Shown here in pieces: positions 4,168 through 64,000 of a stretch of 64,000 nucleotides of DNA; within the stretch, counting starts at the first letter, position 1; each line of letters begins with the position of its first letter. The notes beneath the pieces were generated by a model that made no database searches, had not been told where the DNA came from, and saw only the letters and a program-made list of their open reading frames with translations. The position numbers and the translations under genes were made by a program. The stretch is taken from assembly GCF_944390845.1 (NCBI RefSeq), contig NZ_CALXRM010000007.1, positions 1-64,000 on the forward strand. The letters run 5' to 3'. Origin of the DNA: an uncultured Brachyspira sp. Lineage in GTDB: Bacteria; Spirochaetota; Brachyspiria; Brachyspirales; Brachyspiraceae.

Positions 4168-4573
4168 TTAAGCAAATTAAAAAATGGATATTAAAATTAT
4201 AAAGTTACTAATAAAGAATAAAGGGCGGGAATGTAATTAATTTTATAATTGAAGAATTATTTTGCATGCCCACCCTCTACCCTTTCAATAACTTCTGATA
4301 TTTATAAATTATTCTTCTTTAAAATCTAAACTCTTATTATAGCTGCCCACCCAGATTTTTTTAAATTTACAGCGTAAATACCGCACGGAAAATGAAGCTA
4401 AAAATATAAATCTGTTTGTAATTAAAATTTTATTATATTGTTAATTTTGTTCACCGTGCGGGAAAGAAATTTTAAAGTTAATCACCACTTGGGCGGGTGC
4501 TGAAATTTCTAATTAAGTAATTAAGAAATGGATATTAAAATTCAAAAACTTATAATAAAGAATAAAGGGCGGG
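4168..4573. repeat. Family 1 nested-palindrome repeat, full unit plus upstream tail
   Basis: A complete unit runs from GCCCACCC (4268) to GGGCGGG (4567-4573), 306 bp. Inside lie GCTGCCCACCCAGA with ACTTGGGCGGGTGC, and further in ACCGCACGG with CACCGTGCGG. A second copy of the tail alone (4168-4229, ending AAAGGGCGGG) sits 344 bp upstream, so this locus is a partial tandem. It matches copies at 53.4, 59.7, 59.9 and 63.8 kb. It has no coding frame. Confidence 0.8.
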
Positions 4574-4586
4574 ATATATAATAAAA

Positions 4587-4621
4587 AAGCCCTGCTATTT
4601 GTACAAAAAATAGCAAGGCTT
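4587..4621 (-). terminator. Terminator of the decarboxylase operon
   Basis: AAGCCCTGCTATTT (4587-4600) pairs with AAATAGCAAGGCTT (4608-4621). Read on the minus strand it ends in a T-run. It lies about 35 bp beyond the mmdB stop. Confidence 0.75.
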
Positions 4622-9985: not shown

Positions 9986-10002
9986 GGGGTGGGCGGGCGG
10001 GC
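9986..10002. repeat. Remnant of family 1 repeat (GGGCGGG cluster)
   Basis: GGGGTGGGCGGGCGGGC is an isolated GC-rich block of the kind that marks family 1 ends and arms. The rest of the unit is not recognisable, so this is either a decayed remnant or a chance likeness. Confidence 0.35.
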
Positions 10003-31036: not shown

Positions 31037-31112
31037 AATTATTGTTTCAATATACACTGAAAATTTTAAAGCTTGTAAAAATATATTTTAAGTTTTTATT
31101 TGTTGTGGCTTT

Positions 31113-31195
31113 ACTACAATCGCACGTAGAATAAATTTTTTAATATTGAATTTCAGTTTAAATTATTGAAAAAATTTCATTAACTGTGCGTTTAG
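31113..31195. repeat. Degenerate inner core of family 1 repeat
   Basis: ACTACAATCGCACGTAGA and, about 60 bp on, CTGTGCGTTTAG keep the inner palindrome and spacing of family 1 units, but the GGGCGGG arms are missing. Confidence 0.5.
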
Positions 31196-31221
31196 TCTAT
31201 TAGAAAATTTATTACAATAAA

Positions 31222-44113: not shown

Positions 44114-44205
44114 ATTTATAAATACTTATTTAATAAAATTTTTTGGTATTTCAATTTGATGATTTATAAAAATCAATTAATCAGCATATACCTAAACAAC
44201 TATAC

Positions 44206-44427
44206 TTTGTCAAAAATAATTTTTTAAATTTAAATATCTGCAGGGCTTTGCCCCGCACCCCAGTTCTTTTGGTGACCCAAAGAACCAAAAAGACTGCATT
44301 TTTAGGGTATATCCTATAATTTAATAGGAATGTTTTTTATATAAAGTTCTAGCAGTTGCGTTTTTTGCAACTTTTTTGTGCGGCAAAAAAGTTGATAACA
44401 TTTATATAAAGTACATCAGTTGACAAA
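44206..44427. repeat. Family 2 intergenic repeat, short form
   Basis: A 222-bp block bounded by TTTGTCAA (44206-44213) and TTGACAAA (44420-44427). The left arm holds GGGCTTTGCCCCGCACCCC and the hairpin GTTCTTTTGG/CCAAAGAAC; the right arm holds CAACTTTTTTG/CAAAAAAGTTG around TGCGG. It lacks the extra palindromes found in the 30.8- and 54.8-kb copies, so it may be the simpler ancestral form. Confidence 0.75.
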
Positions 44428-44472
44428 CTCTAAAACAACTTTCAATTTTTACATCATATAATTTTATAATAA

Positions 44473-50727: not shown

Positions 50728-53274
50728 CTATAAAGTCTCTTTTATTAAATCGAAAACCTTATTATCTATACTAATAGCCATTTGCACTTCTTCAATAGAA
50801 GCATCAACTTCCTTCAATATTTTTTCTTTACTTGTACCATATATATTCGCCACAATACCTGATAAACGCTCCGTTTCTGTAGGACTTAAATTTGTAAATG
50901 CATATCTAAAATTAGGAAGCACCTCCAAAAATTTATCTTCATCTAATCTTTTTATAGTGCTGTCTATACTATTTATAATACTCTCATTAATAAATAAAAT
51001 ATCCCTTGCCACAAGAAGTATTCCATTCAAGAAATAAGCTACAACTTCACTATCCGATGACTCCAAGAAAGATGCTACTATATTAGAAAACTCATCTGCT
51101 GTTAATCTTCCAGACTTGTATTTTATAGCAAGACAAACTGCATATATATGACTGCTTCCAAAAGTATTATCAAGCATTAAATCTATCTTATCATTGAATA
51201 TATCTATATCACACCAATCAGGATTTTCTAAACTAAATGAATATAAATTTTTCATATATTTAGAATGTTTTAAAGCTTCTTCTTCATCTAAATTTTTCAT
51301 AGATTCCATATTAACAACAGCAAGTACAAATACTTGTTTAGCTATAGATTCTATCACCTGCATAATATCATAATTATCAAATAATGACTCTCTATCCTTT
51401 GAAAAATTATCATTGATAGTTTCCATATTAGCCAAATAAGATAAATTATTTAAGCATACGCAAAGATTGACAAAATTATTATCATTTAATATTACAGCTT
51501 CTATTTTTCTGTAATTATCAATAAAAAATCCATAAAGCCCCATAACATTAGCTTCTACTAAAAGTTTTGAAACTTCCATAGCATTTATATTATTATTAAG
51601 TTTTTCAACTATTAAATTTGATGCCAATTCTTCTATAGTAACACCGTAAACTGATTTATCTATCAATGATGCTTCTACTAAAGTTTTATATTCATATTTC
51701 CAAATTTCTCTTGCTAAATTTTTATTAACTTTATTTACATAGTCCGGCCCTCTAACTAATGAACAAAAGCCGACATCTAAAAATTTCATTTTATGGAAGA
51801 ATTTACTTTTTTCAAAATGATTCTTATCCTTTACAATATCAAGAGTTGATTCTATTTCTTCTGTTTTATCTATTTTTATTTTAAACTCTTTGCATTTATT
51901 TCTAAAATCTATTACAACCGGAGGAACTATACTTTTTGAAGATACCTGTCCATTCTCCATTCCTGAAAGAAGTTTAAGCATCAAATCAAGATTGCTTGTA
52001 TTTTCTAAAGATATTGCCCCTTTTACAAAAGCACTTTTAGTGGCATCTATAAGTTCATATACTCCTGCCGATTCCTTACCTCTTAACTTTGCAAGATTAA
52101 CAGCCATATAATAAGCATTTATACAGTCTGGTATAGTTACATTATGATTAACTCTGTCTATATTAGATGCCTTTATTATAAATGACATTACAACTTTCAA
52201 AAAAGTATCATGTAAATCATTCTTCTTATCTTTTTCACATTTTTCAAGTTCTTTATAAACCGAATCATAAAAAGCAGGAAATTCGATCCCAGCTCTATAA
52301 CCTCTCCTAGCATCAGCATCTCTGAACGAATATGGTATTAAATAATTTGATGAATTTGATACTATATACTTTTTTAATTTTTTATATTCTTTATCTAATT
52401 TCTTACTGTCTTTTTCATCTTCTTTTAATTTATCTATTATACCTTTTGTGTGAAAACTTCCAGTAACTACTAAAACTCTTTTATATTCTTCTAATGCCTT
52501 TTTAACATTTAAAGCCATTACATATTCTCTGTTTCTAGTTTCAAAGTCTTCATCTTCTATCAAACGCATATAATAGCCCAAAGCATAAACACTTCTTATA
52601 AACTCCTTGCTTTCTTTAAGTATTCCGTTTATCTCGAAATCTCTCTCCCAAAGCTCAGCAAATGTTCTAAGTCCCGCTTTTCTTGTAAGTTCTATTGTAT
52701 AGGCATTGACATTAAATCTATTATCATCATTATCATAAACTGATACTAATTTTCTTTTTTTATCTGCATTATCATTTTTTGTTTCTTCTGAATTTTCTTC
52801 TTCATTATTATTTTCTTTTTCAGGATCCGATTTCTCTATATCATTTCCTGTAGAATTCTCTGCCCCATTTTCTATCATAGAAGCATAATTCATATCTATA
52901 AAGCTGCAATGAATATTATTTTTTAATGCTTCCTTTATAGCTGTAAATTCCGGAGAATAATCCAAAAAAGGATAATAACATCTGTATCTTTCATCATCTT
53001 CATCTATATAACTTGAATAAATACAAAATGGGGCTTTGGTATCTTCTTCAATCATATACTTCATCAAATCATTACAGTCGTTTGGTCCTTCTATAAGCAC
53101 TGCATCTGGTTTGAAGCTCTCAAAAATATTTTTTAAATGGTATGAGCATGCTGGAGAATGGTGTCTTATAGGAAAGAATATTACATTATCTTTTATACTT
53201 TCTTTAAAACACTCGTCAAAGTTGTTATTATCTTTCATACTATCTTTATTTGTTTTAGTTGTTTTTTTCATCAT
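50728..53274 (-). CDS. DUF5682 family protein
   Basis: A large soluble protein of 848 residues. The N-terminal FFPIRHHSPACSYHLKNIF and AVLIEGPNDCNDL motifs are those of the DUF5682 family, with RVLVVTGSFHTKGI further on. An acidic, Ser/Glu/Asn-rich insert interrupts about residues 130-165. The rest is helical. In other bacteria such proteins are commonly encoded beside MoxR AAA+ ATPase and von Willebrand A protein genes, and are thought to form one complex. Here neither partner is adjacent, and the gene stands alone between the efflux operon and a repeat element. AAGGA precedes the start. Confidence 0.72.
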   Translation of the reverse strand: MMKKTTKTNKDSMKDNNNFDECFKESIKDNVIFFPIRHHSPACSYHLKNIFESFKPDAVLIEGPNDCNDLMKYMIEEDTKAPFCIYSSYIDEDDERYRCYYPFLDYSPEFTAIKEALKNNIHCSFIDMNYASMIENGAENSTGNDIEKSDPEKENNNEEENSEETKNDNADKKRKLVSVYDNDDNRFNVNAYTIELTRKAGLRTFAELWERDFEINGILKESKEFIRSVYALGYYMRLIEDEDFETRNREYVMALNVKKALEEYKRVLVVTGSFHTKGIIDKLKEDEKDSKKLDKEYKKLKKYIVSNSSNYLIPYSFRDADARRGYRAGIEFPAFYDSVYKELEKCEKDKKNDLHDTFLKVVMSFIIKASNIDRVNHNVTIPDCINAYYMAVNLAKLRGKESAGVYELIDATKSAFVKGAISLENTSNLDLMLKLLSGMENGQVSSKSIVPPVVIDFRNKCKEFKIKIDKTEEIESTLDIVKDKNHFEKSKFFHKMKFLDVGFCSLVRGPDYVNKVNKNLAREIWKYEYKTLVEASLIDKSVYGVTIEELASNLIVEKLNNNINAMEVSKLLVEANVMGLYGFFIDNYRKIEAVILNDNNFVNLCVCLNNLSYLANMETINDNFSKDRESLFDNYDIMQVIESIAKQVFVLAVVNMESMKNLDEEEALKHSKYMKNLYSFSLENPDWCDIDIFNDKIDLMLDNTFGSSHIYAVCLAIKYKSGRLTADEFSNIVASFLESSDSEVVAYFLNGILLVARDILFINESIINSIDSTIKRLDEDKFLEVLPNFRYAFTNLSPTETERLSGIVANIYGTSKEKILKEVDASIEEVQMAISIDNKVFDLIKETL

Positions 53275-53343
53275 TAATAATCCTTAACAATGAAAAGTAT
53301 TTTACTATAAAAACAGTATAATGCAATAATTACAAATTTAAAT

Positions 53344-53651
53344 CCCGCCCTCTATCCTTTTTACATCTTCTGTCACTTTTGTATTATTTTCTTTAAAATC
53401 TTAACAGTTATTTTAGCTGCCCACCCAAAGTGTTATTTAAACTTATAGCCCCATAACCGCACGGTAAATGAGTCTAAAAATATAGATTTATTTGAAATTC
53501 AAATTATACAATATTATAAAATGTATTAACCGTGCGTTGAATAAGCAAAAAATCTAATAATCACTTGGGCGGGTGCTTTAATTTCTGTTTTAAACTTAAA
53601 AACAAATAAAGTTTGATATTCCAGTATAAAATAATAAAGATAAAGGGCGGG
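53344..53651. repeat. Family 1 nested-palindrome repeat, full unit
   Basis: The clearest unit, 308 bp. Outside: CCCGCCCTCTATCCTTT with AAAGATAAAGGGCGGG. Middle: GCTGCCCACCCAAAGTG with CACTTGGGCGGGTGC. Inside: AACCGCACGGTAAA with TTAACCGTGCGTT. It sits between divergent genes, the DUF5682 gene and the ankyrin lipoprotein gene. No coding frame. Confidence 0.85.
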
Positions 53652-53719
53652 TTTTAAAATAAATTTTTATGATCGAATTTGAACAAAAGCCATACCCTAC
53701 AGGGCTTTAATATAAAAAC

Positions 53720-53747
53720 TTGAAAAAAATAATTTTCATAATATAAT
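53720..53747 (+). promoter_or_regulatory. Promoter of the ankyrin lipoprotein gene
   Basis: TTGAAA, 16 nt, TATAAT, about 30 bp before the ATG. Confidence 0.65.
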
Positions 53748-53778
53748 AATAAAAACTTGACTATAGGATATATTGTTT

Positions 53779-54774
53779 ATGAAATATTTGTTAATTCTTT
53801 TTCTATCCACCATAATATTTTCTTGCTCTAACGATAATAATAACGATACTAACAATAATAAAGAACTAAATAATAATGCAGATAAAGTAACTATAAATTT
53901 AGATGACAGTACAGATAATAATAAAGAAAATAATTCATCAATAAATACAAATCAAACAGAAGAAACAACATATTATTCATACACAGATAAAGAAATTATA
54001 TCTTTTATAGAATCAGGAGATTTTCAAACAATCAAAAAATTAATTGAATCAAAAAGTTTAGATGTTAATTATAATTTAGAGATAGATGAATATTCTAAGT
54101 CAACACCTTTAATACAAGCTATAAAATATAAACAAACTAATATCATAAATTATTTATTAGAAAATAATGCAGATGTTAATTTAACTTTAGGATATTCTAC
54201 TCCATTAACAGAAGCTATGTATGATGAAGAACTTGTTCGTAAACTTATAGATTTAGGAGCAGATGTCAATTTACCTGCAGAACTTACAGGCTTTACTCCT
54301 CTTATGGCTAGCCTTCATAATATTGCTATAACAGAACTTTTAATTGAAAAAGGTGCTGATATTGAAGCTAAAGATGATGACGACATTAATGCTTTAGTTT
54401 ATGCCTCAACTTATAATAATGAAGAGATGGTAAAATTTTTACTTGAGAAAGGTGCCGATGCCAATACAGTATGCGAAATAGAAAATGAACATATTGATAT
54501 ATCGCCTACTCCTTTAATGAATGCTGCTTATAGAGGGAATACTAATATAATAAATATGTTATTAGAAAATGGTGCTGATATTAATTATACCACTGATTAT
54601 GGAATGACTGCTTTAATGTATGCAGCAAGTTTTAATCAATTTGAAGCTGCAAAAGTACTTTTAGAAAATAATGCTGATACTTCAATAACTGATGAATATG
54701 GCAGGACTGCACTTGATTTAGCAAAATCAGAAGATTATAAGGATATAGTTGAGCTTCTTGAAAAATATAATTAA
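53779..54774 (+). CDS. Ankyrin-repeat lipoprotein
   Basis: A 331-residue lipoprotein: signal with lipobox (IIFSC), a long Asn/Asp-rich linker (about 19-70), then about seven ankyrin repeats (for example TPLIQAIKYKQTNIINYLLE, GFTPLMASLHNIAITELLIE, GMTALMYAASFNQFEAAKVL). Ankyrin repeats bind partner proteins; the linker suggests the domain hangs off a membrane. I use the ATG at 53779, since the longer frame starts with TTG at 53773. Brachyspira-like genomes carry many such genes. The partner is unknown. Confidence 0.85.
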   Translation: MKYLLILFLSTIIFSCSNDNNNDTNNNKELNNNADKVTINLDDSTDNNKENNSSINTNQTEETTYYSYTDKEIISFIESGDFQTIKKLIESKSLDVNYNLEIDEYSKSTPLIQAIKYKQTNIINYLLENNADVNLTLGYSTPLTEAMYDEELVRKLIDLGADVNLPAELTGFTPLMASLHNIAITELLIEKGADIEAKDDDDINALVYASTYNNEEMVKFLLEKGADANTVCEIENEHIDISPTPLMNAAYRGNTNIINMLLENGADINYTTDYGMTALMYAASFNQFEAAKVLLENNADTSITDEYGRTALDLAKSEDYKDIVELLEKYN

Positions 54775-54803
54775 TACTTTTAATATACACCTAAACAGCT
54801 ATA

Positions 54804-55166
54804 TTTGTCAAAATAAATTTATATTTTTGTTTTTATATCTGGGGCTTTGCCCTTACGAAGTACACAGCGTGCAATACCCCACTTCTTTTGCGACCGAAGG
54901 AAGTACTGCGACTGAAAGGAGTACCTTTAGGTATGGTATTGCCACAAAGAAGCTATATCCTCGACAGGCTCGGATACGCTTCGCGAAAGGCTATATTTGG
55001 GCTTTAATTTAATAAATTATCTTACTATCTTACATGTAATACGATTCCAGTATGATTTAGTACTAATTTTATACCTTGCACTTTCGCGAAGCGTGCTTGC
55101 GGCAGCAACTTTGACGAAGTCCGCAGAGCGTGTGCGGCGGGAAAAAGTTGAATAAAAAATGACAAA
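54804..55166. repeat. Family 2 intergenic repeat, long form
   Basis: About 363 bp between TTTGTCAA (54804-54811) and ATGACAAAC (right end near 55166). It shares the CCTAAACAGCTATA-type flank and GGGGCTTTGCCC arm with the 44.2-kb copy and the extra palindromes (GCGACCGAAGGAAGT, TATCCTCGAC/GGATACGCTTCGCG) with the 30.8-kb copy. The right arm has CACTTTCGCGAAGCGTG and GACGAAGTCCGC. A short open frame across it has no start support. Confidence 0.78.
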
Positions 55167-55270
55167 CTTAAAAATTCTTAGTATATATAAAAAAACTTGA
55201 TTATGGAATATATTAATGAGTAAATATTTTCCTGCTATAATGATACATTATTCATCAAATATAATTAATA

Positions 55271-59639: not shown

Positions 59640-59676
59640 TAAATTAATATAAAATTATTTCAATTTGAATACTACA

Positions 59677-59872
59677 ACCGCACGCTAAACAAAACTATAA
59701 ATATAGAATAATTACAAATTAAAATTTAAACTACAAATAAAATTTCGCTCACCGTGCGTTAAATAGATTCTAAAGTTAATAAAAACTTGGGCGGGCATGC
59801 TTTTTCTAATTAAGCAAAAAAGTTAATTAAAGACTTATTTTTAATTAAAATAAAAAAACATAAAGGGCGGGG
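59677..59872. repeat. Family 1 repeat, truncated unit (inner core plus 3' arm)
   Basis: Starts at the inner stem ACCGCACGCTAAAC, then CACCGTGCGTTAAAT, ACTTGGGCGGGCATGC and a terminal AAAGGGCGGGG. It is almost identical to the matching part of the unit that follows, offset by 350 bp, so the two arose by a recent tandem duplication. Confidence 0.85.
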
Positions 59873-59912
59873 TTTTTAAATAAATTTATAAAGTAAAAAA
59901 TTATTTACATCT

Positions 59913-60221
59913 GCCCACCCTATAGACTTATTATTTTAATTTGATATTGCTGTTTAAATTTTCCTTAGAGTTAAAACAGAAATTACAGCACCCACCCTAA
60001 ATTTTATTAGATTTAAAAATTTACTAACCGCACGCTAAACAAAATTATAAATATAGAATAATTACAAATTAAAATTTACACTACAAATAAAATTCCGTTC
60101 ACCGTGCGTTAAATAGATTCTAAAGTTAATAAAAACTTGGGCGGGCATGCTTTTTCTAATTAAGCAATAAAGTTAATTAAAGCTCTATTTTTAGTGTAAA
60201 ATAAAAAGCATAAAGGGCGGG
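59913..60221. repeat. Family 1 nested-palindrome repeat, full unit
   Basis: A 309-bp unit: GCCCACCCTATAG at the left end, GCACCCACCCTAAAT with ACTTGGGCGGGCATGC, ACCGCACGCT with CACCGTGCGTTAAAT, and AAAGGGCGGG at the right end. It fills the space between the pst operon and the PhoH-type gene. Confidence 0.85.
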
Positions 60222-60267
60222 ATTTCTCCAAACCACTCTATGCTTTAATTTTTAATATTAAATAATT

Positions 60268-63718: not shown

Positions 63719-63742
63719 TTCGAGTCTATTAAAATAAAAAAC

Positions 63743-63780
63743 ACCCAAGTATTATTTATTAATGCTTGGGTAATTTTTTT
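63743..63780 (+). terminator. Terminator after the hydrolase gene
   Basis: ACCCAAGTATT pairs with AATGCTTGGGT with one mismatch, followed by seven T. Confidence 0.8.
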
Positions 63781-63976
63781 AACGCACGGTAAACAAAACT
63801 ATTTTTATAATAAAAATTATAATTATCAATTCATTTATCATATATAATTTTACTCAACGTGCGGTATCTTAATCATAAATTTAAATAAAGTTTGGGCGGG
63901 CTTTATATTTTCAGTGTAAACTATAAAGAAATAAAGATAAAAATAACTAATTAAATTAAAAAGCATAAAGGGCGGG
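63781..63976. repeat. Family 1 repeat, truncated unit at the window end
   Basis: Starts with the inner stem ACGCACGGTAAAC, then CAACGTGCGGT, TTGGGCGGGC and a terminal AAAGGGCGGG. The 5' third of the unit is missing, as in the copy at 59677. Confidence 0.8.
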
Positions 63977-64000
63977 CAAATGTAAAAAGATCTTAAAACT

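Follow-up and report, generated by a model that had tools for sequence, protein, structure and literature searches.

A Brachyspira-only family of intergenic six-site repeats distributed around the predicted parS locus

The element and its copies

The window analysed here is a stretch of 64,000 nucleotides from an uncultured Brachyspira sp. (contig NZ_CALXRM010000007.1, positions 1 to 64,000). Within 50,728-54,774 of this window, an intergenic element of 308 bp is flanked by a DUF5682 gene on one side and an ankyrin-repeat gene on the other. It contains no open reading frame of at least 80 amino acids, as the first-pass annotation had noted. The three nested inverted repeats described in that annotation are present, with outer arms CCCGCCC/GGGCGGG, middle arms GCCCACCC/GGGCGGG and inner arms CGCACGG/CCGTGCG. 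The arms themselves are not the palindromes that they were taken for; the outer and middle arms share a single motif, GGGYGGG, which is directed outwards. On the plus strand, the general order of the six sites is A (CCCRCCC), B (CCCRCCC), C (CGCACG), c (CGTGCG), b (GGGYGGG) and a (GGGYGGG).

Table 1. Positions of the element, its sites and related features (window coordinates unless a genome or locus is named)
Feature	Position	Strand	Remark
Right-end fragment (site a)	4168..4244	+	in tandem with next copy
Complete element, all six sites	4253..4590	+	
Solo G-run GGGGTGGGCGGGCGGG	9986..10001	+	related site type, not an element copy
Degenerate C-c core only	31098..31216	+	weak match, 28.6 bits
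Complete element, reference unit A-B-C-c-b-a	53344..53651	+	orthologues in 8 other species
Site A, CCCGCCC	53344..53350	+	GGGYGGG on minus strand
Site B, CCCACCC	53420..53426	+	
Site C, CGCACG	53458..53463	+	
Site c, CGTGCG	53531..53536	+	73 bp from C
Site b, GGGCGGG	53567..53573	+	
Site a, GGGCGGG	53645..53651	+	
Half element C-c-b-a	59655..59889	+	first of tandem pair
Complete element	59894..60241	+	second of tandem pair; right end within terminator-like hairpin behind PhoH gene
Half element, core and one arm	63742..63997	-	near window end
Solo G-runs at other loci	L112:12635; L115:17234; L134:6368/9590/14201; L129:8078; L070:6367		
Predicted parS pair, G019	1.676 Mb		
Predicted parS pair, G009	3.038 Mb		
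Predicted parS pair, G012	0.015 Mb		
Predicted parS pair, G016	1.593 Mb		

We set 26 complete copies from the same genome to one orientation by iterated profile, and each scored clearly higher in one orientation, usually by about 100 bits or more. The six sites are near-invariant across these copies, with spacers about 30% diverged. Measured in 69 complete copies drawn from many Brachyspira species, the spacing between sites was 77.3 bp (SD 1.1) for A-B, 37.2 bp (SD 0.9) for B-C, 73.6 bp (SD 0.8) for C-c, 36.4 bp (SD 0.7) for c-b and 77.3 bp (SD 1.5) for b-a. Tandem copies are joined by a linker of 42-43 bp from site a to the next site A, and the ends of the element are fixed only as half of this 42-bp linker.

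Most of 184 arrays, a set that still includes a handful of non-Brachyspira viral contig entries, follow the grammar (gg)Cc(GGggCc)n(GG), in which outward-pointing GG arms flank a C-c core and GG-gg joins adjacent cores. Among the array types are ggCcGG (53 arrays, corresponding to the unit in the window), CcGG (44), CcGGggCc (16) and CcGGggCcGG (10). One complete arm accompanies 100 of 219 cores, two accompany 74, and none is found with 14.

Seven copies had originally been proposed in the window. Those at 4.2, 53.4, 59.7, 59.9 and 63.8 kb were recovered, that at 31.1 kb is a weak core remnant, and the copy at 10.0 kb was not found by profile search, the site holding only the GGGGTGGGCGGGCGGG run. 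We additionally identified a right-end fragment beyond the places first listed (Table 1). The genome as a whole gave 79 BLAST matches to the element, and the stretches examined hold 75 non-overlapping profile hits in 47 clusters, every one of which is intergenic (47/47), in agreement with the proposal that copies lie only between genes. The family is much more abundant than chance would allow: the core pattern CGCACG-N60-76-CGTGCG was counted 146 times in this genome, against 0 for the reversed control pattern.

At 60,190-60,250, the right end of the second tandem element forms one arm of the terminator-like hairpin (AAGCATA...TATGCTT), and in G012, G005 and G018 a different repeat replaces much of the right arm of this element. 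A further terminator-like hairpin (CACCCAAG...CTTGGGT, then a T-run) stands beside the core of the 63.8-kb copy, at 63,744-63,783, where the inner arm site is expected. Solo G-runs, which are G-quadruplex-like and consist of three or four GGG tracts with single bases between them, were found between genes in these genomes of 27% GC, often preceding a AATAGATTTT-like stretch, as behind site c. Two more dispersed intergenic repeat families (window positions 54,763-55,194, taken as 54,740-55,210 for the control below, and 44,164-44,452) have many copies per Brachyspira genome, at about 70-91% identity.

Taxonomic range and conservation in place

We identified 146 cores in the source genome, 27-146 in 22 relatives, a fivefold variation in copy number, and 0-2 in three others (none in G006 and G021, two in G010). 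As three species have no or almost no cores, the role of the element is not essential to the genus. G010 lies at the root end of the DnaA tree, which has a midpoint root, a long branch and no G006 or G021.

An exact-pattern scan of one genome per species, across 84,980 prokaryote species, found the pattern in Brachyspira only. Plasmid, phage and viral collections hold no element copy; 90 hits of the pattern to viral contigs of higher GC content appear to be chance matches, with 0 profile matches among the 80 checked. We found no account of the repeat in Brachyspira genome papers available without subscription. The repeat family is undescribed, restricted to Brachyspira, intergenic, and present in almost every Brachyspira species.

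Close relatives of the 53.3-kb copy, 80-91% identical to it, occur in eight other species, and several of them share at least one flanking neighbour. Pairwise comparisons within three sets of orthologous copies show differences at 2.1, 2.0 and 0.0% of site bases, compared with 32, 27 and 26% for G/C bases and 12, 12.5 and 10% for A/T bases of the spacers. Change at the sites is roughly 13-fold lower than at spacer G/C, both classes having been chosen from the consensus so that the bias of that choice is limited, indicating that the sites are under selection where they sit. Without selection, GC sites would be expected to decay fast in an AT-rich genome.

In the relatives G005, G013, G015, G011 and G018, the gene on one side of the 53.3-kb element is swapped at the element edge. 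We considered and rejected a gene cassette: synteny breaks at element edges in several relatives, but the genes next to the element are either ordinary core genes or ankyrin genes in tandem duplication. The flanking genes are ordinary, and no shared family was found among them.

Distribution around parS and the position of the origin

We searched four complete genomes for parS, allowing at most one mismatch, and the reversed pattern gave 0 hits. Each of the four contains one close TGTTTCAYRTGAAACA-like pair, predicted to be parS (Table 1), and additional single hits in G012 (two) and G016 (one) look like chance. The window contains no parS at zero to two mismatches, and only chance hits at three (TGTTTCACGTGAAACA-like 16-bp palindrome).

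For locus lists made up of the best 40 candidate regions per complete genome, the circular mean of the element loci lies -0.01 Mb from parS in G019, +0.11 Mb in G009, +0.02 Mb in G012 and -0.01 Mb in G016, where it is based on six loci only. The parS-centred half of the chromosome holds 32/38 loci in G019, 32/36 in G009, 30/35 in G012 and all of the six in G016, giving 100/115 when pooled. The control repeat family at 54,740-55,210 is evenly spread in G009, with 19/36 loci in the parS half and a Rayleigh R of 0.06. The orientation of the elements relative to parS showed no significant replication polarity in the four genomes.

In G019, G009 and G012 the two parS sites enclose a C-c core, with a spacing of 72, 71 and 73 bp, respectively, and with a GGGYGGG-type site or run nearby; no core was found at the parS locus of G016. 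The three loci are apparently orthologous, and thus represent one event rather than three.

In each of the four complete genomes, 1.2-1.6 Mb separate the dnaA gene from parS, the parS-like pairs remote from dnaA in G009, G012, G016 and G019 being at loci L316, L318, L319 and L134. When 20-kb stretches were sampled for GC skew and gene orientation, the origin was placed close to parS in G019 and, with a less sharp signal, in G009, whereas the signal in G016 was noisy. The origin was taken at dnaA in the B. pilosicoli genome paper (PMC2897892), and skew support is stated, not displayed, in that of B. hyodysenteriae (PMC2650404). Against this published assignment, we argue from the sequence that the replication origin probably lies near parS and not near dnaA. 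Relative to the origin so predicted, sites in the four genomes are concentrated in the origin half and sparse at the terminus, as is seen for Noc and SlmA sites. If dnaA marks the origin after all, the element cluster would be a terminus domain.

A candidate origin-domain array and its alternatives

On balance, we consider it probable that the repeats form a protein-bound DNA array that marks the origin domain, acting like sets of Noc or SlmA sites. This reading follows from the invariant sites, the fixed spacing, selection in situ and the parS-centred distribution, which together lend good support to the protein-binding array listed among the options of the first-pass annotation. At least one putative DNA-binding protein would recognise GGGYGGG, and the CGCACG/CGTGCG dyad would be recognised by the same or another putative protein. 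The fixed spacing (7.0 helical turns for C-c, about 3.5 turns for B-C and c-b) would align the bound proteins along a defined face of the helix, from which they would bridge or wrap a single unit and connect it with its neighbours, and the arrays would in this way organise the origin half of the chromosome. The sequences show the anatomy, spacing and grammar of the arrays, the selection on their sites, the lack of co-variation, the clustering on parS and the core within the parS pair of three genomes; protein binding, bridging or wrapping, and the cellular role are what we infer.

The likeness is to the Noc sites (NBS) of Bacillus and Staphylococcus and the SlmA sites of E. coli, which also comprise dozens of sequence-specific, dispersed, origin-proximal sites that are sparse in the terminus; the Noc sites of S. 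aureus have the same kind of origin-biased distribution (PMC5540599). In contrast to these single short palindromes, the element combines two kinds of site, six sites in all, in phase across 300 bp and set in arrays, and its sites differ in sequence from both. It shares its chromosomal centre with parS, and in three genomes a core lies within the parS pair, but its sequence is unrelated to TGTTTCAYRTGAAACA. ParB_N proteins number one per genome.

The main rival is an ancient, non-autonomous MITE-like element with sites that bind a trans-acting transposase, and with insertion or retention favoured near the origin, which we regard as unlikely. The element is short and non-coding with inverted repeats as its ends and, like ERIC, Correia, RUP and BOX, it is intergenic, 100-300 bp long and taxon-restricted, with modular partial copies; it is also AT-rich, is present in more than 100 copies, differs in number between species (27-146), and several parS-side stretches have lower coding density. 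However, no enriched flanking direct repeat was found around 49 isolated copies, where the annotation had suggested looking for target-site duplications, although such repeats can decay with age. The Y1 transposase, the one type searched for, is absent from all 26 genomes (0/26, control genomes positive), and phage, plasmid and viral collections lack the element. The nearest non-tandem paralogue is at most 88.6% identical and tandem pairs reach 94%, indicating that local amplification is recent and dispersal old. Unlike MITE-type repeats, the element has ends set only by the tandem linker, internal sites kept by selection in place and a parS-centred distribution, which another repeat family of the same genome does not share. 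Of the mobile-element option that the annotation had also raised, what stands is a possible mobile ancestry as the source of the dispersal; the analysis turned up neither a target duplication nor a Y1 transposase, and neither a clean empty site nor a dispersed copy of recent age.

The second rival, a topological or transcription element of BIME type, whose arrays would bind gyrase or stop transcripts between convergent genes and downstream of operons, seems to us improbable. Of the gaps that hold an element, 18/39 lie between convergent genes, as against 28/160 of the long gaps without an element (p 5e-4), and the elements' median distance is 54 bp to gene 3' ends and 109 bp to 5' ends. This enrichment fits a transcription or supercoiling role as well as it fits the origin-domain array, for instance the relief of supercoils between convergent genes; it fits tolerance too, and insertion tolerance alone would yield the same gene context. 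The element resembles REPs and BIMEs, the latter of which bind gyrase and IHF, in its high-copy, regularly spaced, intergenic palindromic units and alternating arrays (PMC2817692). A scan of the element found no terminator-like site, and a BIME-type role alone does not account for the centring on parS. REPs are 20-40 bp long and spread by RAYT (Y1) transposases. Unlike them, the element has a unit of 300 bp with six sites and no co-variation, in a genus without a Y1 transposase, the search for RAYT (PF01797) having been negative in the same 26 genomes.

A long structured RNA, namely a three-stem hairpin of about 300 nt that is possibly a minus-strand transcript, is very unlikely. The strand at 53,344-53,651 folds far better than shuffled sequence, in line with the fold that the annotation had proposed (-80.5 kcal/mol, compared with -48.5 for shuffles, z -6.9), and A.C mismatches on the plus strand would be G.U pairs on the minus strand. 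Yet paired arm bases hardly vary among the 26 copies, the middle R/Y position alone varying, uncompensated, and no compensatory changes were found among 97 non-redundant complete copies, in which the arms of one copy are no more complementary than arms of different copies (spacer complementarity 0.535 for self and 0.537 for non-self, z -0.7). RNAalifold, run on both strands, gave a consensus energy of only -17 to -22 kcal/mol against a single-sequence mean near -77, and Rfam yielded no match at gathering or E-value thresholds. With invariant sites, no arm co-variation and no Rfam match, this candidate is largely refuted. The annotation had named a lack of both co-variation and fixed ends as evidence against its proposals: the former was found, and the latter in part, given the linker-defined ends. 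G-quadruplex halves, in which two same-strand GGGYGGG sites 77 nt apart would pair as a four-stranded structure in single-stranded DNA near the fork, are likewise most improbable: the fourth position is C or T about 95% of the time and the same genomes contain solo runs GGGYGGGYGGGYGGG that have four G-tracts, but a 70-nt loop is unusual and the invariant CGCACG dyad and the constancy of spacing to 1 bp are left unexplained.

To our knowledge, almost nothing is known about chromosome organisation and segregation in Brachyspira and most spirochaetes. Returning to the origin-domain array, we tentatively raise the possibility of a dedicated Brachyspira system of marking, in which a multi-site array related to the inter-parS core was copied many times over about 1 Mb around a centromere-like locus, is kept by selection, and would be read by putative proteins specific to the genus, which would fold or tether the origin half. 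A repeat that is centred on parS and reaches about 146 cores in a genome offers a handle on such a system, since element DNA may be used to fish out the putative binding protein, for which the near-coreless genomes G006, G021 and G010 may serve in phylogenetic profiling. Finally, the family is a case of a high-copy intergenic repeat, of a type usually filed as junk or MITE, that has measurable selection and a chromosomal address.
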